In this document: positions 1,759-61,700 of the stretch, one piece after another
Numbering within the stretch: the stretch's first letter is position 1
How the letters are laid out: the number at the start of each line of letters is the position of its first letter
Assembly: GCF_029962835.1 (NCBI RefSeq)
Contig: NC_080588.1
Span: forward strand, 66,426,001 to 66,490,000
Direction: 5' to 3'
DNA from: Magnolia sinica
Lineage: Eukaryota; Streptophyta; Magnoliopsida; Magnoliales; Magnoliaceae
DNA length: 64,000 bases
Position numbers and translations under genes: made by a program
The notes under the pieces: generated by a model
Told to the model about the DNA's origin: nothing
The model's database searches: none
Seen by the model: only the letters and a program-made list of their open reading frames with translations

Positions 1759-2180
1759 GGAGGTACATGGCCCACTGCTATGTATGCGTTTTTATCCACA
1801 CGGTCCATTCAGTTTTCAAGATCATTTTATGAGATAAGCTCAAAATTGAAGCATATCTAAATCTTAAGTGGATCACACTACAGGAAATAGAGGAGATTGA
1901 ATGCCTACCATTGAAAACTTCGCAGGGTCCACGGAAGTTTTGGATCAAACTGATATTTTTATTTTTCATTCATTCAAGTCTGTGACCTAATGAGCAGATT
2001 GGATACAAATAAATATTACTATAGACCCTTGGAAGGTTTCAAAGTGGACATCATTATCCCAATGTTTCCTTTAATGTGGTATACTTGAGCTTTGAATATG
2101 AGCTCATGTCCTAAAATAATCTGGAAAAATGGATGGACAGTGTGTATAAAATATATACATCATGGAGGGCCTTATAGAGT
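1759..2180. mobile_element. Foldback element, copy 1
   Basis: About 420 bp. The left arm (TATGTATGCG then ATCCACACGGTCC) is the diverged reverse complement of the right arm (ATGGATGGACAGTGTG then ATACATCATGG). The arms enclose a loop carrying a GATCAAACTGATATTT-like motif. It is the first of four consecutive copies between 1.7 and 3.8 kb. Confidence 0.7.
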
Positions 2181-2249
2181 CCTTATGTTTGCTTATGTTG
2201 GGTTTAGCAATCTGCCTCAGTTTCTTGAGGGAAGCCGCTTGCGTACTGT

Positions 2250-58700: not shown

Positions 58701-61700
58701 TATTATAAGTTAATTACAAAAAAAAAATTCAAGGATCTTTGGAAATCCGAAACAGTGAAAATCCAAAGCGTTACAATATATATATATAGTAATGGTTCGC
58801 AAGGAATTTATGTACAAGCCTTCATGTAAGCCGTAAGATGATAAGAGCGGCTGGGATTTAGTTGTATTGAGAAAGGGAAAGTCTTCAAAAAAAACTCTCT
58901 TACACTCGCAGATGCAAAAGCTTGAACGGATTCTGTGTGGGGCCCACTATGATATTTGTGATAAATCCAACCCGTCCATCCATTTTTCGAAATCATTTTA
59001 GGACATGCGACCAAAAATGAGGAGGATCCAAAAATAAAATGAGCCACATGAGAGGAAACAGTGGGGATTTAGTGACCACCGTTGAAACATTCATATGGCT
59101 ACAAAAGTTTTGTATCAATTTATGTTCCTAGTGTTTTCATTTTATCTCAGTGAAAATGACCTTATAATGGGTTTGGATGGAATATAAACACCAAGGTGAA
59201 GCCTACGAAGGTTTCAATGGTAAGCATTCCTTTCCCCACTGTTTTATCTCGTACGGCCCACTTGAATTTTGGATCCTCCTCATTTTTGGTATAGTGTTCT
59301 AAAATGATATCTAAAAAACAAATGGACGGGTTGAATTTCACACAAAGATCAGAGTGGACCCCACACAGAATCCTTTCGCGTGATCTTCATGAGAAAGGCT
59401 TTAGTAGGAAATCCGTATCTCTGGGTTTGGGAAACGTACTGGCTACTCCCCCGCCATCGGCTAATGGCGGGTGGTCGGTGCTATGTGGACCCCACCATAT
59501 CACTGACCACCCATTGAGATTGGGATATACCCCATTTTGGTCTCATACCATATCACCAACCACCAGTTGAGGTTGTAATATACCCCATTTTTGGTCTCAT
59601 ACTATAAAATGATCTAGAAAAATAGGTAGACGATATAGATAAAACACATATATCATGGTGGGCATCGAGTAACTCAAAATCGTATATGGTACATTGAGTA
59701 GCTCATTTTGGTTTGCGAGATATGCCTGTTTTAAGGCTCTCATGATCTTGATGACTCCTGCTTCTGATCGGGCCTTCTTTGATCCATCTTGGACATGAAA
59801 GTATCCATGACCCGCTCTACATCAAGTACCCATGTGATGGGGTGGGTGCAAGGGTGTGTATTAAAAACAAGAAGAAAAAAATAAAAATAGTGCCCGGTAT
59901 GTTTTCATTTCAGCCCTAAGATTTTTCTTTTCCTAGCATGAGCCTAACAACCATGCATTTCTTACTTAGGTTCCTTAGCGAAGATAATATATCTGCGGAC
60001 TGTGCTTATGTGGGCCTTGCTTTGCCTGGAGACGTAGGATCATGGCAAAGAGAATGCAAGGTCTCTCTCGGCCATGGGGTTTTTTTTCTCTCTCTTTCTT
60101 TCCTTTTACAAGTTCTTGTAAGTGATATGATCGATGAAGTATGGCATGCTGATGGGCATGGATTAGGGTACTTGAACGTTGGTGTAATGAAATAAGAGCG
60201 TGTCTCAATAGCAGTTGAATACGATGGACCGCCGTGTAATCCAACAATGCCATTCTCAATGTCGTAAAATATGGGCGCCGGAGGGCCTATTTCATTCTTG
60301 GGCCTGACCAACGGCTCAATCTAGATTGGCCCATTCACAGAACTGATGAGATGGATTAGGTATTATGCCATTTCAGGGTGTATCTTACAGTGTTCTGTTT
60401 TCAGGGCTACCAGTTTTGGAGTAGAGCTGACTCAGGTGGGTTTTTCTCCATCAACGACATCCGGACCGGAGACTATAATCTCTATGCATGGGTGCCAGGT
60501 TTTATAGGAGATTACAGAAACGATGGGATCATTACCATCACCGAAGGTTAGCATGCGAGAGATTTATGGGCAGCAACTGTAGGATTTGGAAAAGTGGGGC
60601 CCATGGTTCATGGATCTAAACCATTGATATGTTGGGATCACTGTAGATTGAAGATCATCACTCTTTGATATTTGGCCTTTCTCTCTTTTGAGTTTACACC
60701 ACGGCTTATATCTAATTTTCTTCTGTGTGTTCTTAAGACATAACATAAGATGGTTCAGATCTTTGAATATTGGATATCCACCATCCTTGGTGAGGCCCAT
60801 TATTTCAATAGTTTGGATCAACAGACCTTGGGCCCCACATGCACATAATCCTACTCTTGATTGAGAGGCCGATCCACTACAAAAATCTGGTGTTTAGCCT
60901 AACCTACAACACGATGTGTGGGTCCCACTGAGATGTATGCATGACATCCAATCTGTTCATCACTTGTCCGCTCTCATGTTATCCTTGTCTCCAAAAACTG
61001 GGCCATAACATATAAAATCATGCTTAAAATCTCTAAAATGTGGAGTGGTCCACCTGAGTTTTTGAATGGCTGGATTTATGGTTTGTCCCTTGATTGTGGT
61101 GGATCGCATCTTCTGAATGGAGTGGATGGCATATATGAAACAAAGTGCCCACGCTCAAACTATCCAGAAGGTTTTTAACAGTCGGTGTCCCCATCCCAAC
61201 TTTTCCCTATGGTGTGACCCACTTGAACTTATGATCGCCCTAATTTTTCGGTTCCAAGGAGTACCAAAGGGTTCGAACATGATGGACGGATTGGATTTCA
61301 CGAACACATCACAGTGGGCCCCACACAGTGTTGTAGATTAGCTTAACCAACAAAACTTAGTGGATCCGACCTCTGTTCCAATGACGCATTTGCTGATGAG
61401 TAAGACCCTTGCAACTCCTAGCTTTACTTCTTGCTTCTGTTTGATTTACCTAATGAGTGGTGAGGATTTTCCAGTAAGCATGGCTTATATAAAGTTTCAA
61501 TGGTCTTTTGTTTGATGCAACTTATTCTTTTTTAACATTGAAATCAGGATGTGATATTGACCTGGGTGATCTGATATATGAACCACCTAGAGATGGTCCC
61601 ACATTGTGGGAGATCGGCGTCCCTGATCGTTCTGCTGCTGAGTTCTTCGTTCCCGATCCTAATCCTATGTATGTTAACAAACTCTACATTAATCATCCTG

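Follow-up and report, generated by a model that had tools for sequence, protein, structure and literature searches.

Old hairpin elements with a patchwork of outer ends in Magnolia sinica DNA, most probably Mutator-like foldback MITEs

Genes and hairpin copies in the window

Here we have analysed a stretch of 64,000 bases from Magnolia sinica (contig NC_080588.1), referred to below as the window, in which lectin receptor kinase genes and rhamnogalacturonate lyase exons lie among many copies of a self-complementary element. In its make-up, which also includes a Copia-type element, the window resembles plant nuclear DNA. The three kinases, identified by a Pfam scan of ORFs at 10750-12945, 32487-34616 and 38995-41130, form a dispersed gene cluster with 74-75% identity across ~0.95-1 kb. 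Lyase exons are found at 47.8-49.6 kb (from 47828) and a sub-threshold match to PL4 domain III at 62.2 kb, so the hairpin copies at 53-61 kb are probably intronic in this gene.

To count copies, we used a core profile of 446 columns, built from 12 seed copies and applied at E<=1e-5. It matched 28 segments covering 9,858 of the 64,000 bases, ~137 of which (7728-7864) fall within a solo LTR, and neither 20 dinucleotide shuffles nor the reversed window gave a match at E<=0.01. The original prediction of a dense, dispersed family with a common core is borne out by this difference, and the arm words and four termini that it quoted are all present in the window sequence. LTR elements have broken two of the copies into two segments each, which reduces the 28 segments to 26 loci, several of them fragments (Table 1); weaker core matches at ~30193-30388, 45128-45178 and 54906-55033 were excluded from the count. 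Tandem expansion of one locus was considered and ruled out, as copies flank genes on both sides and their own flanks differ. A degenerate core pattern had no match in viral contigs.

Table 1. Hairpin copies and associated features, with positions in the window
Feature	Position	Description	Basis or core position
Core copy 1	1769-2180		core profile
Core copy 2	2255-2662	tips AAGCCGCTTGCGTACTG / AAGTAGATTGCATACTG	core profile
Core copy 3	2741-3179		core profile
Left target duplication of copy 4	3268-3277	CTGATGAAGG	
Copy 4	3278-3802	both ends	core 3321-3759; end alignment, fold
Right target duplication of copy 4	3803-3812	CTGATGAAGG	
Copy 5	6887-7984	solo LTR inside at 7167-7864	core profile
Copy 6	8159-8670	both ends, GAGYKGATTAGGTGCGG type	core 8210-8628
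Copy 7	9115-9527	divergent core	core profile, core tree
Copy 8	9624-10171	both ends, GGAAACGGATTGGCTAC type, strong hairpin	core profile, fold
Copy 9	16428-23498	parts 16428-16724 and 23381-23498, Copia-type LTR element between	core profile
Copy 10	36466-36742	partial	core profile
Copy 11	37807-38300	both ends aligned	core profile
Copy 12	38431-38974	CGGATY type; ~80 bp before first ATG of lectin receptor kinase ORF	
Copy 13	41460-41825	without ends	core profile
Copy 14	41926-42450	left tip GGAAACGGATTC; right end by eye, uncertain	core 41990-42401
Copy 15	42523-42771	partial; left flank module resembles copy 6	
Copy 16	42776-43019	partial	core profile
Microsatellite-type outer module	43144-43207	GAGTAATGGTCTCC..., adjoins (TA)n	
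Copy 17	43248-43514	internal deletion; left end microsatellite type, right end CGGATTGGC type	
Copy 18	43603-44034	right tip GAAGCGGATTGCG	core profile
Copy 19	44122-44577	(TA)n beyond right end, ~44.64-44.65 kb	core profile
Copy 20	53496-54018	TAGAAAAGGTTC type, right end adjoins (TA)n	core 53547-53995
Copy 21	54096-54281	microsatellite-type outer module and core fragment; follows (TA)22(AG)20	
Copy 22	54380-54799		core profile
Copy 23	55081-55615	with right microsatellite-type module	core 55081-55508
Copy 24	58788-59372	left tip AGTAATGGT after (TA)n	core 58931-59372
Copy 25	59428-59664	truncated; left module resembles copy 8	core match 59563-59664
Copy 26	60864-61374	both ends, AGAGGCCGATCC / AGAGGTCGGATCC	core profile

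The arm-word matches themselves stood up in part: the words are real, but 5 of the 14 plus-strand matches to GTGGGGCCCACC (at most 1 mismatch), at 15199, 15413, 15648, 15681 and 15844, belong to a minisatellite region, those at 15199 and 15844 lying within called arrays. This self-similar region (15026-15933) is built on a 34-bp unit that contains GTGGGGCCCA and has no core match. Two further repeats were observed in passing: a pair of 49-bp inverted repeats at 17941-19433, 86% complementary, starting AGGCCGTGTTTGGGCAACTG and likewise without a hairpin core match, and a 53-bp tandem duplication (59494-59606) within the truncated copy 25.

A coding partner had been reported missing, and this holds for the sequence covered: no DNA transposase was found in a Pfam scan of 19 of the 24 ORFs of at least 110 aa (the other five being antisense within kinase ORFs), nor in a six-frame Pfam scan of 23.0-32.0 and 44.6-53.5 kb. 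The three copy-overlapping ORFs of at least 110 aa, at 3157-3618(-), 6632-7024(-) and 53934-54317(+), had no Pfam match; by this measure the copies have no coding capacity of their own, as for a non-autonomous MULE.

Arm pairing and age of the copies

The core consists of two arms of ~170-190 bp around an asymmetric loop of ~80 bp. When 19 copies are aligned, their majority consensus is self-complementary at 154 of 170 arm columns, and the consensus arms with the outer ends have the length of long TIRs (~100 bp or more). In single copies the arms have decayed, with matches at 49-72% of at most 205 column pairs. When folded as DNA, the two copies for which z-scores were calculated gave -16.2 (copy 8, 9624-10171) and -7.0 (copy 4, 3278-3801). 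The nearly complete hairpin with arms of ~200 bp that had been proposed is thus upheld by the folds of these two copies, strong in copy 8 and less so in copy 4, but it overstates the pairing that now survives within individual copies.

Changes in the two arms tend to mirror one another. Across the 19 aligned copies we counted 144 mirrored cells against a permuted expectation of 93.7, a value reached in 0 of 10,000 permutations; a group of 13 copies gave 80 against 54.1 (1 of 10,000), and the 11 of these that lie outside the 43-44 kb cluster gave 8 of 10,000. This hints at copying that kept the two arms similar until decay of the copies set in. The 8 non-seed copies show a weak excess (63 against 51.7; 769 of 10,000), for which reason the test serves as a lead only. 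The excess over all 19 copies would also suit hairpins kept for a host function, either as small-RNA precursors or as transcribed regulatory hairpins. We consider such a role most improbable: arm pairing has decayed to the range given above, the mirrored changes fade in the non-seed copies, LTR elements break two copies, and an Rfam scan of the window at gathering thresholds gave no match. A tRNA scan of the window likewise gave none.

The hairpin copies are old. Core pairwise identity is 48-76%, and the median end branch of the core tree is 0.26 changes per column. Furthermore, copies 5 and 9 must be older than the LTR elements that split them, each of which is flanked by a 5-bp duplication. 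The solo LTR in copy 5 measures 698 bp, runs from TG to CA and has TGTGG on both sides. The Copia-type element in copy 9 (16725-23375; 6,651 bp) has TAATG on both sides and holds gag_pre-integrs and RVT_2 fragments; its LTRs (16734-17304 and 22780-23375) are 85% identical. The solo LTR itself belongs to a second LTR family, with diverged relatives at 5642-6034, 35838-36271, 50893-51269 and 59672-59824. Decay at CpG sites was tried as a further age signal and proved weak, with transitions at 0.261 at consensus CpG, of which there are only 5 sites, against 0.174 at other C/G.

Outer ends, target duplications and core history

Beyond the core, ~20-110 bp vary from copy to copy. The termini include GATTAGGTGCGG at 8164 (mirror at 8654), GGAAACGGATTGG at 9624 (mirror at 10159), TAGAAAAGGTTC at 53496 (mirror at 54007) and CGGATCAGGTGG at 38431, whose mirror at 38963-38974 is the variant CGGATTGAGTGG. 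Read inward, the word CGGATT was counted in 8 of 43 flanks, where 0.7 would be expected; in the opposite direction the count was 3. The word was chosen after the ends had been inspected, and the flanks come from related copies that are not independent. It is the commonest four-letter 6-mer in these flanks; the top count of any four-letter 6-mer in 300 shuffles was 7 within 65 bp of the core and, with 110-bp flanks, 8, equal to the CGGATT count. By eye, seven of the eight occurrences (all except R59372) lie at element tips, and since these seven tips span five subterminal sequences, several different-looking ends can be read as variants with a common CGGATT tip. Tips of the family include GGRARCGGATT and AGTAATGGTMTCC. 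A second end type, AGTAATGGT(C/A)TCC, has (TA)n or (GA)n beside it in three places (43.1, 54.1 and 55.6 kb); at 58.8 kb its tip AGTAATGGT adjoins (TA)n. Most copies are without such flanks. The TAGAAAAGGTTC end, known from one copy and present at both its ends, matches neither type.

Target duplications were sought at 13 hand-set end pairs, using 8-11-bp words and allowing 8 bp of slack per side, and scored against 156 mismatched end pairings (maximum score 8, 95% point 5). Copy 4 is bounded by a perfect 10-bp repeat that outscores all 156. Two further pairs match at 8 of 9 positions with a score of 6, above the 95% point and below the maximum: GCCACTTCC / GCCATTTCC near copy 12, and TTGAGGGAA / TCGAGGGAA at copy 2, where the word overlaps the tips. 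One pair scores 5 on CCAATCCG / GCAATCCG, words that are themselves tip sequence, and the remaining 9 of 13 score 3 or less, with no duplication above the null. The earlier statement that no consistent target duplication is present accordingly describes most of the 13 pairs, but it misses one perfect 10-bp repeat and two matches at 8 of 9; for a Mutator-like MITE, duplications of ~9-11 bp would be expected. Old age accounts in part for the lost duplications, and only in part, because copy 4 (branch 0.29) is not among the least diverged.

Taken together, we read the family as old, much-amplified, non-autonomous long-TIR (foldback) MITEs, most probably Mutator-like. The transposase, presumably of Mutator type, would be supplied from another place in the genome and would recognise the element by its outer tips and long inverted arms; the element would be cut out and reinserted, duplicating 9-10 bp of target; one lineage would have settled in (TA)n/(GA)n repeats; and most target duplications would have decayed since. 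A foldback MITE family of another superfamily, e.g. hAT or PIF/Harbinger, in which the 10-bp repeat of copy 4 arose by chance, strikes us as distinctly unlikely. Target duplications are 8 bp in hAT and 3 bp in PIF/Harbinger elements. Nine of 13 end pairs without a duplication would be compatible with such an origin, as would the lack, in the scanned parts, of a transposase to fix the class; however, the 10/10 repeat beats every mismatched pairing, and long arms with microsatellite flanks fit published Mutator-like MITEs. Membership in Mutator is therefore likely.

How the family came by its different ends can be approached through the core tree, whose bootstrap is not fully settled. Here 13 copies form an unresolved burst that is uninformative on end exchange; the cores at 55083 and 58931, each with a microsatellite-type end, are grouped as a pair (support 100/98); and those at 53547, 60909 and 9115 form a separate group. 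Some of the difference in ends thus tracks core divergence. Copy 19 (44122), with (TA)n in its right flank, sits in the burst and not with 55083/58931, and its right arm is 89% identical (189/213) to the left arm of copy 17; the 43.1-44.7 kb cluster to which they belong has mixed end types and looks nested. Between the outer module at 43144 and its counterpart at 54097, 58 of 64 positions are identical (91%; 81% across 91 aligned bases of the whole flank), whereas the core arms beside them are identical at 60 of 84 (71%). Similarly, the 43144 and 55.6 kb modules agree at 56 of 65 positions and their arms at 116 of 165. Between 54.1 and 55.6 kb, modules (85%) and arms (82%) are alike to a similar degree, so plain descent fits. 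The 91% modules on 71% arms and the placement of copy 19 among other cores suggest that ends and cores have had separate histories in at least one case.

These observations bear on the proposal that a shared core repeatedly gained new ends, which receives some backing from the 43144 and 54097 modules and is tempered by the common CGGATT tip and by cores that cluster by end type. In its stronger form, recombination between elements, or template switching, would repeatedly give the hairpin core other outer ends, and different transposases could move the same core. We regard this as unlikely, and it can be compatible with a Mutator-like MITE family. Both module comparisons with 43144 would follow from it, as would copy 17, which pairs a microsatellite-type left end with a CGGATTGGC right end, and the grouping of copy 19 apart from 55083/58931. 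Against it stand the 100/98 pairing of 55083 and 58931, the agreement at 54.1/55.6 kb that plain descent predicts, and the CGGATT tip common to several ends. Slower evolution of the ends could also make modules more alike than arms, and local alignment favours the best-matching part. Moreover, in the part of the pineapple report considered here, distal TIR segments shared by Ac-mMITE-1 and -2 were read as a sign of a common or related autonomous source (PMC8449440). Equally tentative is the picture of a core longer-lived than its ends. Here the inner palindrome would be inherited and the outer modules (one of them microsatellite-seeking) exchanged between elements, while one arm would serve as template for the other, which would keep the arms matched and let a new end spread between them.

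Relation to known hairpin transposons

The hairpin family is an ordinary kind of plant DNA, and its curious feature is the patchwork of differing outer ends. Sequences of this kind may be associated with magnoliid genomes. Among the titles listed in a literature search with magnoliid terms, none named such a family, and six core strings had no occurrence in a literature text search, which is not a measure of similarity to named families. One transposon family accounts for ~15% of the window, near receptor-kinase genes and probably within lyase introns. Should core and ends prove to have split histories across the whole genome, the family would offer a way to test how the transposase-recognised ends of hairpin transposons change.

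Because published Mutator-like MITEs combine TIRs, 9-10-bp duplications and (TA)n/(GA)n targets, the family is a probable new member of a known MITE kind; the likenesses that follow are by description, from the parts of each paper considered here. The Mutator superfamily makes up 41.5% of MITEs across 207 plant genomes (PMC12550479). The Ac-mMITEs of pineapple have TIRs, 9/10-bp duplications in some cases, many flanks of TA or GA/CT repeats, and clustered copies, all of which recall the window family; two of their families are similar in distal TIR segments, and in the part considered no autonomous partner was found (PMC8449440). They are reported as recently amplified, whereas the window copies are old (PMC8449440).

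SaTar elements of guayule and rice, which include Micron, are likewise non-autonomous and Mutator-like, with rice families of 380-1900 bp, TIRs of up to 170 bp among the rows covered, end-to-end clusters and, for 11 of the 15 guayule families, 10-bp duplications at sites other than microsatellites (PMC5907723). Long TIRs, 10-bp duplications and clustering make them resemble the window family, but SaTar arrays are described as uniformly non-nested (PMC5907723), while in the window LTR elements interrupt two copies and those clustered at 43-44 kb seem to be nested. In Medicago, the MuTAnT element is built as a foldback from two long TIRs (144 bp in the 292-bp element), with a 9-nt duplication and (TA)n targets, traits that again parallel those seen here; it has a putative autonomous partner (PMC4486113), whereas in the window none was found in the parts scanned. 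Finally, compound ends are common to the window family and to MULEs with multiple long TIRs, for which slippage and recombination between TIRs have been discussed as a source, with recombination left open (PMC3310237). Those MULEs carry tandem related TIRs (PMC3310237), whereas the window shows whole hairpin units between outer ends ~1.5 kb apart.
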